A DNA stretch of 45,360 nt, from NCBI GenBank assembly GCA_017532425.1, contig JAFXJH010000125.1:1-45360 (forward strand), in the 5' to 3' direction. The first letter of the stretch is position 1, and every line of letters starts with the position of its first letter. The notes below the pieces were generated by a model. It was not told the origin of the DNA, searched no databases, and worked only from the letters and a program-made list of their open reading frames with translations. The stretch is from Clostridia bacterium (GTDB lineage Bacteria > Bacillota > Clostridia > Oscillospirales > CAG-272). Shown here one piece after another: positions 27,757 through 33,644 of this stretch. Position numbers and translations under genes: made by a program.

Positions 27757-29229
27757 TTACTCTACCTTTTCGCCGTAGAGTACCTTGAGTGCCTTCCGAA
27801 GCTGATCGTCCTCTTCCTCTGTCAGAGAGAGCAGATTTTTCGATGCCGCTTCCTCGCTGAGCTTCTGCTCAACGTCGGGAGTAAGTCCCACTCCGTCGTA
27901 ATTTTCAACGCCGGGTGCCGTATATGTGCGGTAAGTCAGCTTTAATGCTCCGCCATTGGGAAGTGCGAACGATCTTTGCATAGTTCCCTTACCGTAAGTT
28001 TTTGTGCCTACTGTAATTATATCGTCGCTATATTCGTGCATACAAGCTGTGAAAAGCTCGCCCGCGCTTGCCGTATTTCCGTTTGTGAGAATGACCGTCT
28101 TTCCGCTATGCTTGAAACTACTGTCTACGCTTCCTGCGTATCCGTCGTGGCAGTACGTTCCTCTGTTACTGTTTTCGACATAGGAATCTCCGTTTTTATC
28201 CGAAATTTCTATAAGCGGAACGTTATCTCCGACAAGGAAGGAGAGCACTCCCATCACGCTGTCAAGCGCACCGCCCGGATTATCTCTTACGTCGAATATG
28301 AAATGCTCTGCACCCTGATCCTTCAGCTCGAGATATGCCTTTGCAAACTGCTCTGTAGTCGTGCCGTCAAACTGCAGAAGTCTTATATATCCGGTCTTAT
28401 TATCGGAAAGCATTTTCGAGAGCACCGATATCGTTGTGAACTCCTTACGTGTCGCCGTAAGATTCTTCGTTTCTCCGTTTGTTTTAACGACGCCTATGGT
28501 AACTGTCGTTCCGACCTCGCCTCTTATTTTATTTACTGCGTTATCGTAGCCGATATCCGCGATTTTTTCATTGCCGATTGAAACGATAAGGTCACCCGGC
28601 TCAAGTCCTGCCGCCTCGGCGGGAGAATCGGGATAAACGAAAAGAACGTTTATTGCTCCCTTATCCTCAAGATAGTTTACGAGCACTCCGATGCCCACAC
28701 CCTCGCCGTTAAGCTCTTTTACGTAGTCCTCGTATTCCTGTTTATTCCAGTAATAAGCGTAATCGTCGCCTGTCATCGAAATATACATCTTTATGAGAGC
28801 GTCCATTATCTCGTCATTACTGAGCTTTGAAACGTCTCCGAGATAATAATTCTCAAAGAGCATTTTTACGTACTCGAGAGTATAATAATTATCACCGGTA
28901 ATTACTTCTATAAACTTATTCTGCTCTGCTTTATATTTCGTATCGAGGATCGTAAACGTTGCCATAAAGGTGATTATCACCGCAAGAAGAATGGCAATTA
29001 TCGCTGTAAAAAGCTTTATTTTTTTAGGCTCGGAGGATTTTTTTAATATCTTTTTTGTTTTTTTCTCTCCTGCCGGTATTTTATCTTCTTTTACTTCTTC
29101 TGCCTGCTCTGTGCCCTCTGACACTTCTTTTATTTCCGTTTCCGCGTCCTTTGTTATCTCATCGGACTCGTTTACGTTTGTTTCTTCCGGTTCGTTTAAA
29201 TTTTCGTAGTTATTATCCTTATTTTCCAT
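27757..29229 (-). CDS. S41 family C-terminal processing protease (CtpA-like)
   Basis: 490 residues from the ATG at 29229, which has GGGAG just upstream. An acidic N-terminal cytoplasmic stretch of about 70 residues is followed by a signal-anchor helix (LFTAIIAILLAVIITFMATF). Then come a PDZ domain (GVGIGVLVNYLEDKGAINVL, PGDLIVSIGN) and the S41 domain. NTASAGE carries the catalytic Ser and GTKTYGKG the catalytic Lys. It is an outer-face serine protease. It ends the ftsE-ftsX-LytM block, so processing of cell-wall proteins is likely; in Bacillus related CtpB cleaves a sporulation signalling protein. Confidence 0.95.
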   Translation of the reverse strand: MENKDNNYENLNEPEETNVNESDEITKDAETEIKEVSEGTEQAEEVKEDKIPAGEKKTKKILKKSSEPKKIKLFTAIIAILLAVIITFMATFTILDTKYKAEQNKFIEVITGDNYYTLEYVKMLFENYYLGDVSKLSNDEIMDALIKMYISMTGDDYAYYWNKQEYEDYVKELNGEGVGIGVLVNYLEDKGAINVLFVYPDSPAEAAGLEPGDLIVSIGNEKIADIGYDNAVNKIRGEVGTTVTIGVVKTNGETKNLTATRKEFTTISVLSKMLSDNKTGYIRLLQFDGTTTEQFAKAYLELKDQGAEHFIFDVRDNPGGALDSVMGVLSFLVGDNVPLIEISDKNGDSYVENSNRGTYCHDGYAGSVDSSFKHSGKTVILTNGNTASAGELFTACMHEYSDDIITVGTKTYGKGTMQRSFALPNGGALKLTYRTYTAPGVENYDGVGLTPDVEQKLSEEAASKNLLSLTEEEDDQLRKALKVLYGEKVE

Positions 29230-29264
29230 TTGATCTCCCATAAAATCTCGCCGTTAAGCCCAAA

Positions 29265-30626
29265 TCAGTTTCCCGAAAGAGATACGTCGGGCAGTTCTAT
29301 ATAATCCGCGGGATCGACAAACTCGCCCTTTACGAACACTTCAAGGTTCACCATAGTCGAATCTGCGTCTCCGCTTATTCCCGACAGCGCGATGCTTTCG
29401 CCCGCCTTGACCGTGCTTCCGAGCTCCGCGTTCAGCTTACTGCAGTGCGAATATACCGTAACGACACCCTTTGCGTGCAAAACTGCCACGGTATAGCCCT
29501 TTACAGTGCAGTAATCCGAATAAATTACCACTCCGTCTGCCGAGGCAAGAACGTCCGTAATGCTTCCTGCGGTATAAATATCTATTCCGCTATGAGTTAT
29601 ATTTATATATTTACCGAGCAGCGAGCTCCATTCATATCTGCTTTCATGTCCTTTTCCGAGGTAGTCTGTGTAGAAAAACTCCGAGCTCAGCGGCAAAAGA
29701 TATTCTTCTACCTTTCCCGAAACGAGGGAGGAATACTTTTTGCTGTTTTCCTCAATCAGCTTTGCTATTCTCTGCTGACTTTCTGCTGTTGCGTTCAGGT
29801 AATAGTTATACATATCTTTATCCGAATATATATCGTTAAGATATTTTTTTGCATCCTCTGAAGCGACCTTGAATTCTTCATACGCCGCCGCCGAGACTTG
29901 AGAATATCCGTCTGCCTTTGTGAGGTAATATTTAACCACACCTAGACCGTCTGCCACTACTGCGTAAAGCTCCTCGACCTTAACGCGAAGTGCTTCTTCA
30001 TATATCTTTATCTCCTCAAGCATAGCCTGACCGGTTATAAAGTCTATAATATTATCTGACGTACTGAATATCTCGCTCTTATCGGGCGAGCCCACCTCGT
30101 AGTTCACAGAAAGGCGTTCCTTATAGGCTGCCAGATATTTTTCATATTCCGCTATCGAATCGGAAAGGAGTGCTCTTGTCTCCTCCGACCATTCTACGCA
30201 GATTGAGGAATACTGCTCACACATCTCGTATTTATCGAGTATTAATTTTATTTTGCTGTCATAAAGCTTTTCTGCGTAAAGCTTATCCTCCGGTGTACCG
30301 GCACTGTTTGATATTTGCTCGTCTATTTCTTTGATAAGAGCATCTTTTTCACTTATATTGTTATCAAACTCCTCAAGCGCGAGCTTTATTTCTTCCGATA
30401 TTTCGATATTAAGCGCGATATCCTCCGTTGACTGACCGACCTTATTATCATCCTCATTTTCTGCAGCATCTACTGCTTTAGCAAAGGAAATAATGCTTCC
30501 GCACAGAAGCGCGATCAGCGCAAGAAGTGTCGCCGCAAGCAGCAGTATGGATTTCAAGCCTTTCTTTTCCGAAGCCGCTTCACGGTCGGACGAAATGAAA
30601 TATTTATTTTTCTTGATCTTTTTCAT
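29265..30626 (-). CDS. EnvC-like murein hydrolase activator with degenerate LytM (M23) domain
   Basis: 453 residues. A basic N-terminus and one transmembrane helix (LLLAATLLALIALLCGSIISF) are followed by a long helical, coiled-coil-rich region to about residue 310. A C-terminal LytM fold follows. The first zinc motif survives as HSGID (His345, Asp349) and the middle His as His394 in VYSHCSK. The essential HxH is replaced by Met425-Val-Asn427, so it should not cut peptidoglycan itself. This is the pattern of EnvC-type regulators, which are switched by FtsEX and in turn activate an amidase or hydrolase. It directly follows ftsX. GGAG lies 6 nt before the ATG. Confidence 0.85.
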   Translation of the reverse strand: MKKIKKNKYFISSDREAASEKKGLKSILLLAATLLALIALLCGSIISFAKAVDAAENEDDNKVGQSTEDIALNIEISEEIKLALEEFDNNISEKDALIKEIDEQISNSAGTPEDKLYAEKLYDSKIKLILDKYEMCEQYSSICVEWSEETRALLSDSIAEYEKYLAAYKERLSVNYEVGSPDKSEIFSTSDNIIDFITGQAMLEEIKIYEEALRVKVEELYAVVADGLGVVKYYLTKADGYSQVSAAAYEEFKVASEDAKKYLNDIYSDKDMYNYYLNATAESQQRIAKLIEENSKKYSSLVSGKVEEYLLPLSSEFFYTDYLGKGHESRYEWSSLLGKYINITHSGIDIYTAGSITDVLASADGVVIYSDYCTVKGYTVAVLHAKGVVTVYSHCSKLNAELGSTVKAGESIALSGISGDADSTMVNLEVFVKGEFVDPADYIELPDVSLSGN

Positions 30627-30711: not shown

Positions 30712-31647
30712 TCAATCCTTACGTATATATCTTGACGTTGCGATAAGGCTTCCCGCAACGCCCGAGAGTATTCCGAACACAAAGCATATCGTGCTCACTC
30801 CTATGGCTATTTCCGAGAAATCAAGCGGCGTGAAAAGCTTAATACCCTCTGCGATTTTAGAAATTATGCCGTTATACATAAGTCGCACGGCAACTATTGC
30901 TCCCACAGCGGACATAAGACCGATAAGAAGTCCTTCAAAAACAAACTGTGTGGAAATATATTTATGCGTAGTACCTATAAGACGCATAAGGGCTATTTCT
31001 TCTCTCTTATCGAATATTCCCATACGGACTACCGCCGATATGAGAACTATACAAACGAGCAGAGTTATCGGTATAAGAACGCCGAGAACACCTACGATAT
31101 TATCGCCGAGATCTTCTATTTCTGTTATTGCTTCTCCGTCATCATAGACGCTGTATATCGGATCGTACGACAGAGTATTTCCCTCCTCGTCCGTTTTTTC
31201 AAACGTGAGATCCTTTACCGCTTTTCTGACCTTTGAATATCCGTATTCATCGACCACGCTTACCGTATAGCTTGCCTTGAACGGGCTGTTATCTGCCGTA
31301 AACGAAGCAAACAGCTTTGAATATTCGGGATATCTTTCCTTTTGCTCCTCAAGAGCCTCGCTTTTTGAAACGTAGTCAACGTAATCGACCACGCCATCAT
31401 CTGTAAGCGTACCCAGTATATCGCGTATTGCCGATATCGCGCTTTCGTCACACTCGTCCGAAAGGAAGATACAGACGTTCCCTTCGTTCTCGCTTATGGA
31501 ATCTATATTATGTGTCACCGCAAACGTAAAGGCAAACACAACAAGCGTACTTGCCAGAAGGCAAAGCGACGCGACCGACATTATAAAATTCTTAAAAAAG
31601 ACCTTGAAGCAACCCGACAAAGAGTATTTTATGCTGATTTTTTTCAT
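30712..31647 (-). CDS. ftsX: Cell division protein FtsX
   Basis: 311 residues, four transmembrane helices. After the first helix (near residues 21-45) there is an extracellular loop of about 140 residues that would contact the LytM partner. Then come helices near 185-207, 233-257 and 280-302, with the conserved cytoplasmic EEIALMRLIGTTHKYI coupling segment between helices 2 and 3. FtsX transmits ATP-driven movement of FtsE to extracellular hydrolase regulators. The gene lies 50 bp after ftsE and before the EnvC-like gene. Confidence 0.95.
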   Translation of the reverse strand: MKKISIKYSLSGCFKVFFKNFIMSVASLCLLASTLVVFAFTFAVTHNIDSISENEGNVCIFLSDECDESAISAIRDILGTLTDDGVVDYVDYVSKSEALEEQKERYPEYSKLFASFTADNSPFKASYTVSVVDEYGYSKVRKAVKDLTFEKTDEEGNTLSYDPIYSVYDDGEAITEIEDLGDNIVGVLGVLIPITLLVCIVLISAVVRMGIFDKREEIALMRLIGTTHKYISTQFVFEGLLIGLMSAVGAIVAVRLMYNGIISKIAEGIKLFTPLDFSEIAIGVSTICFVFGILSGVAGSLIATSRYIRKD

Positions 31648-31697: not shown

Positions 31698-32465
31698 TTA
31701 TTTTTCGGATCCGTCGACGTCATCTTTCGTTTCTTCTGACGGCTCATTTTCCGTATTATATTCGGTCTCGCTATTTTCGGTTTCCTCTTTTTCAGATACC
31801 GTGGGAGCAGTGTCGCTTACCACCTCACCGAAATCGAGCGTTATCATTCTTTTTCCGAACTGCTGTGACAGCTCTTCATCCTTGGTAAATATTATTACCG
31901 TTTTACCCTCGGAATTAAGCTTCATAAGCATTCCGAGTATTTCGAGTCCGCCCTTCGTATCAAGAGAAGCGGTCGGCTCGTCCGCAATTATTATCTTCGG
32001 GTCTGTAGCAAGTGCTCTTGCTATCTCCGCGCGCTGTCTTTCCGTAGGAGTCAGCATCTCGGGATATTTTTTACGCTCCTCCCAAAGTCCCGCAAGCTCA
32101 AGAAGCTTACGTGCGCGCTCCTTTAACGCTTTGCCTCTGTAGTCAACGGCTCTAAGCACGAAAATAAGATTATCATACAGAGTTTTATGTACGAACAGGC
32201 GAGATTCACGGAAAACAACGCCGATCTTTCTGCGATGGCGGTATATCTTTCCGGTGCGTATTCTGCTTATCGGAATATCATCGAAATATATATCTCCCGA
32301 GGTTACCCTTTCTTCAAGGAGCATAAGCTTTCTGAGAGTAGTCTTACCCGAGTCTGTCTTTCCGTGTATAAAGACGACCTCGCCGTCATCAACACTGAAG
32401 CTGAGCTCATTTATGGCGACAGTACCGTTCGGATATTTTTTAACGACGTTTACAAATTCTATCAT
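31698..32465 (-). CDS. ftsE: FtsE-like ABC ATPase with lost Q-loop, signature and H-loop residues
   Basis: 255 residues from MIEFVNVVKKYPNG at 32465; GAGGAG lies 7 nt upstream, while the longer frame has no ribosome binding site. Walker A is GKTDSGKTT at 35-43 and Walker B IIIADE at 158-163, with D-loop SLD, all intact. However, the Q-loop reads FRE (Arg86 instead of Gln), the signature LSGGE reads LTPTE at 138-142, and the H-loop reads FTKD (Lys195 instead of His). A C-terminal acidic tail of about 40 residues is extra. It is placed next to ftsX, so it should be FtsE, but with an unusual ATP cycle. A hairpin (TCAGCTTG, 32498-32505, with 32525-32532) lies between it and the regulator gene. 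Confidence 0.9.
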   Translation of the reverse strand: MIEFVNVVKKYPNGTVAINELSFSVDDGEVVFIHGKTDSGKTTLRKLMLLEERVTSGDIYFDDIPISRIRTGKIYRHRRKIGVVFRESRLFVHKTLYDNLIFVLRAVDYRGKALKERARKLLELAGLWEERKKYPEMLTPTERQRAEIARALATDPKIIIADEPTASLDTKGGLEILGMLMKLNSEGKTVIIFTKDEELSQQFGKRMITLDFGEVVSDTAPTVSEKEETENSETEYNTENEPSEETKDDVDGSEK

Positions 32466-32558: not shown

Positions 32559-33644
32559 TTAGTATTTTGCGGGCTTGGACATAAGATATTTCTTGACCAT
32601 AAGAGCCACCTTGAAGGTTATAGCATGCTCAAATTCTCTGAGGTCAAGGCCCGTAAGCTTACGTATCTTTTCAAGACGGTAAACAAGTGTGTTTCTGTGT
32701 ACGAAAAGTCTTCTCGATGTTTCGGACACGTTAAGGTTATTTTCAAAGAATGCCTGAATTGTGAGAAGTGTTTCTCTGTCGAGCGATTCAAGCGGTCCTT
32801 TTTTGAAGACTTCCTGAAGGAACATTTCGCAAAGTGTTGTAGGAAGCTGATAGATAAGACGACCGATTCCAAGATCCTCGTAGCTTATTATCGTCTTTTC
32901 GGTATCGAATACCTTACCTACCTCAAGTGCGATCTGTGCTTCCTTATAGGAGCGTGCAAGATCCTTGAGATTATCAACGACCGTACCTATACCTATAGAC
33001 ACCTTCGTATAGAATTCTGCAGATATCGTATCGGCAATAGAGCGTGCTACCTTTTCTATTTCCTTTACGTCGTCATAAGGCTTGACCTCTTTAACAAGAA
33101 CGGTATCGTTCTCACCGACGCTTATAACAAAATCCTTTGTCTTTCCGGGGAAAAGATTCTGCATTATATCGTAAGGAATGATCTCGTTTTTAGCTCCGAA
33201 TTTAATAAGGAAAACCACTCTTGTAATATCGTTTGCAAAATGAAGCTCCTTGGATTTAAGATATATATCGCTCGGAAGTATATTGTCAAGAATAATATTT
33301 TTTATGAAAGAGCTCTTATCGTGCTTTTCATCGTAGAAGTTTTTGATATTGCTGAGTGATATAGCAAGCATCATCGAAAGCTGTTCAGCGCTTCTGTCCT
33401 CACCCTCAACGAAAACTATATAATCGCTTTTGGTAGTCGTGCTGAGCGAACGGTATGTATATCCGCCGATAACTACGACGTCAGAAGTATACGACATTTC
33501 CTCGCGAACGCCCTGTCTGATCTCTCCGATCTTAACAAGCTCGCTGCAGCAAGTAACCACGCCGGTCTCGTCGATAACGCCGATCACGCGATCAACCGCA
33601 TCCTTCATCTGATAAATAATTCCCTGAAACAGCCTATTTGACAT
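32559..33644 (-). CDS. PucR/CdaR-like transcriptional regulator
   Basis: 361 residues. The middle part is a GGDEF-like fold of the CdaR type (VSIGIGTVVDNLKDLARSYKEAQIAL). The C-terminal helix-turn-helix is the family hallmark: FFENNLNVSETSRRLFVHRN then TLVYRLEKIRKLTGLDLR. The N-terminal 130 residues resemble a sensory domain. Family members respond to small organic acids, purines or metabolites; the ligand here is unknown. It lies 93 bp upstream of ftsE on the same strand and may be part of the division module or simply precede it. GGAGG lies 7 nt before the ATG. Confidence 0.87.
   Translation of the reverse strand: MSNRLFQGIIYQMKDAVDRVIGVIDETGVVTCCSELVKIGEIRQGVREEMSYTSDVVVIGGYTYRSLSTTTKSDYIVFVEGEDRSAEQLSMMLAISLSNIKNFYDEKHDKSSFIKNIILDNILPSDIYLKSKELHFANDITRVVFLIKFGAKNEIIPYDIMQNLFPGKTKDFVISVGENDTVLVKEVKPYDDVKEIEKVARSIADTISAEFYTKVSIGIGTVVDNLKDLARSYKEAQIALEVGKVFDTEKTIISYEDLGIGRLIYQLPTTLCEMFLQEVFKKGPLESLDRETLLTIQAFFENNLNVSETSRRLFVHRNTLVYRLEKIRKLTGLDLREFEHAITFKVALMVKKYLMSKPAKY

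Follow-up and report, generated by a model that had tools for sequence, protein, structure and literature searches.

A native FtsEX-M23 cell wall module in a genus of uncultured rumen and gut Clostridia appears to have had its power stroke and its cutting activity switched off together, with its scaffold retained. The probability we give to this reading is about one half. The module lies in a window of 45,360 nucleotides, which is one entire contig of a MAG (completeness 85%, contamination 5.9%). One of the new observations is that loss of the HxH pair in the M23 protein accompanies loss of three motifs in FtsE, in the same four species of the genus. Judged from their residues, FtsE is probably inactive as an ATPase and the M23 protein as a peptidase. 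A broader view falls somewhat short of even odds: that the FtsEX axis is a retained pseudoenzyme pair whose catalysis was lost jointly and in parallel, once in each of two sister genera, with the physical link between the two proteins under selection.

FtsE keeps Walker A and Walker B and has lost three other elements

The ftsE gene is translated without frameshifts or stops (Table 1). A sequence-only reading of this DNA had claimed that the Q-loop Gln, the LSGGE signature and the H-loop His were lost and that Walker A and Walker B were kept. The translation and a comparison with the family bear this out. The Q-loop Gln, LSGGQ/E signature and switch His of the ABC catalytic set are replaced by R86, LTPTE and K195, whereas K41, D162 and E163 are present in all four species. 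The A-loop Tyr11 is likewise retained when compared with canonical FtsE of the same family. The acidic tail, put at about 40 residues by that reading, measures 36, of which 14 are Asp or Glu. Further substitutions that it had not listed are Gly38 to Asp in Walker A, D87E, A147E and N167S. Across 78 canonical FtsE proteins of the family, 67 alignment columns reach 95% conservation or more, and all four members of the genus depart from 14 of them.

Table 1. Coordinates of the module genes, their motifs and their neighbours in the window.
Feature	Position	Strand	Remark
S41 (CtpA-like) peptidase, operon neighbour	27757..29241	minus	catalytic Ser and Lys motifs intact
M23 (LytM-type) coiled-coil protein, presumed FtsX partner	29265..30626	minus	catalytically degenerate
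M425-V426-N427	29346..29354	minus	at the HxH site of relatives' M23
ftsX	30712..31647	minus	cytoplasmic coupling loop conserved; ~17-residue extracellular-domain insertion
ftsE	31698..32465	minus	255 aa; degenerate Q-loop, signature and switch His
Acidic tail of FtsE, residues 220-255	31701..31808	minus	14 D/E in 36; disordered in model
Switch position 195	31881..31883	minus	Lys instead of His (FTKD vs THD/E)
Walker B IIIADEP, residues 158-164	31974..31994	minus	Asp162 and Glu163 present; ADEP is 161-164
Signature LTPTE, residues 138-142	32040..32054	minus	stands for LSGGE
Q-loop position 86	32208..32210	minus	Arg instead of Gln (FRE vs FQD)
Walker A GKTDSGKTT, residues 35-43	32337..32363	minus	Lys41 intact, Gly38 to Asp
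PucR-type regulator	32559..33644	minus	conserved upstream neighbour; synteny and rate marker

The NCBIfam FtsE model TIGR02673 gives this protein 181 bits, which is under its curated cut-off of 264.85 yet the top score of all families; canonical FtsE proteins of the same family reach up to 288 bits. The AlphaFold model shows an ordinary NBD fold (pLDDT 84.2), with tail residues 225-255 below 50. Its nearest structure is Streptococcus pneumoniae FtsE (6z4w; Z 31.1, 1.6 A over 222 residues, 33% identity), with which it shares synteny with ftsX, the NBD fold, the A-loop Tyr, the Walker A Lys and the Walker B Asp-Glu. According to the pneumococcal structure (PMC7468199), Q88 makes contact with the transmembrane domain, the LSGGE signature holds ATP in place and in orientation, and the transition state of hydrolysis is stabilised by H197. 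These correspond to R86, LTPTE and K195 here, and the Gly38 to Asp change and the acidic tail are further differences between the two proteins.

The M23 partner has lost its HxH pair

Both His residues of the M23 HxH motif are missing in all four members of the genus (MVN here). In M23 enzymes, the first His is the proposed water activator and the second is a zinc ligand (PMC9662197). The Hx3D motif is present (H345-D349), with the Asp changed to Glu in one member. HxH is retained, and all five M23 residues are intact, in all 75 other family genomes in which both genes are readable. The S41 peptidase encoded next to the M23 gene keeps its Ser and Lys motifs, and the losses are therefore specific to the FtsEX-M23 pair.

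FtsX scores over the gathering score for both of its Pfam domains, with 49 bits against 23.5 for PF18075 (FtsX_ECD) and 44 against 25.5 for PF02687 (permease), and it preserves the cytoplasmic loop through which it should contact FtsE. The M23 protein presumably binds FtsX, with which it shares an operon. Its structural model is of lower confidence (pLDDT 68, pTM 0.43) and consists of a coiled coil and a LytM domain. The best-matching structure is EnvC from the FtsEX-EnvC complex of V. cholerae, at Z 14.6 and rmsd 9.1 A across 294 residues, and several M23 domains score equally well; the EnvC chains 8tzl_E and 6tpi_A are matched over ~300 residues. Like the LytM regulators EnvC and DipM, the protein combines a coiled coil with a LytM domain whose zinc and catalytic residues are incomplete, and as expected of an EnvC-type protein it is encoded with FtsX. 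However, EnvC has W320, V324 and Y401 at its zinc positions (PMC11627006), whereas here Hx3D is kept and HxH is lost. The score against the EnvC equivalog model NF008644 is 42.7 bits, below the cut-off of 270. The protein may thus work like EnvC, though it is not classed as EnvC. By orthology and fold the module consists of FtsE, FtsX and an M23 protein, but its residues fall short of both the ABC catalytic set and that of an active M23 enzyme.

Besides this protein, the genome carries further M23 genes whose products retain HLH, and each genome has two Amidase_3 proteins. The Amidase_3 domains are just 178-185 residues long, and an EnvC-type regulatory insertion has no obvious room in them.

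The FtsE changes are fixed in the genus

The sequence-only reading had proposed an alignment of related FtsE proteins, and this places the changes as fixed in a clade: every one of the genus's four sequenced species carries R86, T139 and K195. The other three species match the records Oscillospiraceae bacterium SIG672, SIG665 and Clostridia bacterium RGIG4151 (roe-deer colon). Gln86 and His195 are kept in the FtsE of all 75 other family members in which both genes are readable. This split of 75/75 against 4/4 is far above chance expectation. The ancestral locus order rsmE-pucR-ftsE-ftsX-M23-S41-greA, with ftsE adjacent to ftsX, is common to the genus and to canonical family members; the gene is therefore the ftsE orthologue, and a paralogue is ruled out.

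Could the changes be an artefact, that is, a sequencing error, a frameshift, a chimeric contig, or a paralogue with the true FtsE elsewhere? The incompleteness and contamination of the MAG would allow for it. However, the reading frame is intact and identical changes occur at the same locus in four species from separate assemblies. Furthermore, none of the four genus genomes, including two with completeness of 94% and 96%, yielded a second FtsE above the TIGR02673 cut-off. The other strong matches considered as a second canonical FtsE were ordinary ABC ATPases, several of them in longer frames. The two objections that the earlier reading had raised against itself, an error in the sequence and a canonical second copy, were not borne out in these genomes, and the artefact explanation, refuted by the orthologues, has a negligible probability. 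The FtsX_ECD gene is single in three of the four genus genomes.

When this FtsE was searched against 394 genomes of the order, no similar FtsE turned up elsewhere, although an independently altered FtsE would escape such a search. The best match outside (G140, E 3.5e-62) has a canonical FtsE. One otherwise canonical family member (G138, L121) carries LAGGE, in which the signature Ser is replaced by Ala, and keeps the Gln, the His and the M23 residues.

A sister genus shows graded states

Among the FtsX proteins compared, the ~17-residue extracellular insertion occurs only in this genus and a sister genus. The five genomes of the sister genus comprise two with canonical proteins (G061, G163) and three intermediates (G121, G170, G171). 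The FtsE of the intermediates has Arg86 and a signature of LSGVE, LTGCE or LSGLE, with the His kept, and their M23 protein has GxH in place of HxH. Their FtsE tails (L193 in G171, L194 in G170, L195 in G121) are rich in Glu and Asp, partly repetitive, and 215-293 residues long.

Were FtsE and the M23 protein altered once or twice? A tree of PucR, GreA and RsmE, whose genes are outside the pathway, places the intermediates with the canonical G061 and G163 (support 99/97). The sister genus is thus united, which implies two parallel joint losses. A tree of FtsX and S41 instead clusters the intermediates with this genus (support 81/83), a grouping that may be caused by long branches. On the combined tree two events fare better, and a single event is not rejected (AU p 0.142). 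The joint FtsE and M23 losses thus represent two independent events at most, and the count of 7 against 75 is not to be read as 82 independent trials.

Many of the family's genera, a close relative among them, lack the whole block of ftsE, ftsX and the M23 gene. The FtsX_ECD gene was detected in 82 of 146 sampled family genomes and in 56 of the 103 good ones; in other words, more than 40% of the good family genomes lack it. In all 14 good FtsX-less genomes in which the locus was inspected (e.g. L198-L211, 14 genomes between G005 and G073), pucR is followed by S41 without the three genes between them. One block-less genome, G009, groups with this genus and its sister in a clade with support 100/98, within which the tree does not fix its exact branch. 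Its placement together with the graded series means that canonical, intermediate, catalytically degenerate and absent states all occur among close relatives.

Selection on the module is relaxed and still purifying

The dN/dS of ftsE is 0.14-0.19 across the four species (NG86), with 0.14 at dS 0.80 for the closest pair and the rest near saturation. The corresponding values are 0.09-0.22 for ftsX, where computable, and 0.19-0.38 for the M23 gene. The reading frames of all three genes are unbroken in the four species of the genus and in the three sister-genus intermediates. The codons for Arg86, Glu87, Thr139 and Lys195 show synonymous differences among the four species while the residue stays constant, indicating that the new FtsE residues themselves are held. 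Signature position 141, in contrast, varies freely (T, V, A or L). The replaced columns as a group show no extra constraint: 8 of the 14 are uniform in the four species, compared with 118 of 225 overall. Measured against pucR and greA, the rates of ftsE, ftsX and most of all the M23 gene are several-fold higher in this genus than between other genera. Selection on the FtsEX-M23 module is thus relaxed but present, and purifying.

These rates bear on the second-ranked explanation, a slow decay in which FtsEX-M23 is dispensable in the clade, its sites are lost under relaxed selection, and the block is heading for deletion. The raised dN of all three genes, the graded states of the sister genus and the absence of the block from all 14 FtsX-less genomes inspected, including one from the supported clade of the two genera, are what decay predicts. 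What argues against it is that the reading frames are whole in four plus three species at a dN/dS far under 1, that Arg86 and Lys195 stay constant despite synonymous codon changes, and that Walker A, Walker B and the FtsX loop are retained. Decay is a serious contender and, on balance, somewhat unlikely.

A proposed scaffold with both ends switched off

How could the module work without firing and cutting? In the preferred explanation, a retained scaffold, FtsE would have kept its nucleotide-binding core, possibly still binding ATP, and would have lost the parts that close the sandwich and fire it, namely the Q-loop Gln, the signature Ser and Gly, and the switch His. FtsE is expected to be a homodimer, and both ATP sites would therefore be disabled. 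The M23 partner, lacking the HxH pair, would have turned into a pseudo-peptidase similar to EnvC. The working mode would most likely be independent of hydrolysis: FtsE, nucleotide-bound or not, would dock on FtsX via the conserved cytoplasmic loop, and FtsX would then anchor the coiled-coil pseudo-peptidase as a scaffold or localised activator. Cutting would be left to other enzymes, with the M23 proteins that have HLH or the Amidase_3 proteins as candidates.

ABC proteins that have naturally lost NBD motifs and kept their function are known. Asymmetric proteins of the CFTR, SUR and TAP type have one degenerate ATP site. However, they contain two different NBDs and one consensus site, whereas both sites of the expected FtsE homodimer are hit here. 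No report of a naturally degenerate FtsE, or of an ABC homodimer without all three elements, was found in the open-access literature. The module resembles FtsEX-PcsB and FtsEX-RipC, which couple FtsEX to a hydrolase in Gram-positive bacteria and mycobacteria, in that FtsX has a coiled-coil partner whose C-terminal domain is of the wall-hydrolase type (M23 here). PcsB and RipC, however, work as CHAP or NlpC/P60 enzymes, and ATP hydrolysis is required to activate RipC (PMC10694151), whereas both sites are degenerate here. E. coli EnvC differs as well, being driven by an active FtsE.

The sequence-only reading had suggested that this FtsEX binds ATP and either has an altered cycle or serves as a static or allosteric switch. 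The suggestion is partly supported: it survived the tests it had set for itself, with the changes fixed and under purifying selection, but it covered only half of the change. A working but exotic ATPase cycle is disfavoured, because the M23 HxH loss, the graded sister lineage and the block-less genera together favour loss of the whole line from FtsEX to hydrolase, with the scaffold retained or slowly decaying. A version of such a cycle is a re-engineered ATPase in which Arg86 and Lys195 contact the gamma-phosphate with altered kinetics, the M23 change being a separate event. The replacement residues are indeed basic and fixed, and the catalytic Glu163 and both Walker motifs are retained. However, the signature loop is gone and position 141 is free. 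Furthermore, these species have also lost M23 catalysis, as has in part the lineage whose FtsE is partly degenerate, and this pattern points to a lost output. A re-engineered ATPase is therefore improbable.

Even less probable is a purely cytoplasmic role, in which FtsEX would signal inwards only, for recruitment or for control of septal synthesis via FtsA/FtsZ and perhaps through the acidic tail, with the M23 protein as a passenger. FtsA is acted on by E. coli FtsEX (PMC7343993), and acidic FtsE tails are present in this genus and are much longer in the intermediates. On the other hand, neither the M23 protein nor the extracellular domain of FtsX has been lost, and their dN/dS stays under 0.4.

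We judge the scaffold most likely, slow decay next and a re-engineered ATPase less likely. Purifying selection, intact reading frames, the fixed R86, T139 and K195, the conserved FtsX loop and the NBD and LytM-type folds retained in the models support the scaffold, as do the accompanying M23 losses in this genus and in the sister lineage, the EnvC match of the M23 model and the presence of other M23 proteins and of Amidase_3 proteins. Against it stand the faster evolution of ftsE, ftsX and the M23 gene and the frequent absence of the block, both expected of decay, as well as the free position 141 and the short Amidase_3 domains. In other FtsEX systems, moreover, division is blocked by an ATPase-dead FtsE (PMC7343993), or the hydrolase is activated only when ATP is hydrolysed (PMC10694151).

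If the broader view of a retained pseudoenzyme pair is true, FtsEX would have a useful function without ATP hydrolysis or hydrolase activity. The case bears on whether FtsEX works without ATP hydrolysis. In E. coli ATPase mutants septation is blocked, and when the block is bypassed, EnvC recruitment still supports separation (PMC7343993). A lineage with joint loss of ATPase and hydrolase residues, with intermediates and absences nearby, amounts to a ready-made evolutionary experiment; its proteins would allow tests of a hydrolysis-free scaffold and reveal which parts are kept longest. The co-loss in FtsE and the M23 protein also provides independent evidence that the FtsE ATPase cycle and the M23 enzyme form one functional unit in these Clostridia.

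The upstream PucR-type regulator

The PucR-type regulator has a GGDEF-like domain and is 93-98% identical across the genus, far above its neighbours. Its gene immediately precedes the ftsEX module, and in genomes without the module it immediately precedes S41.
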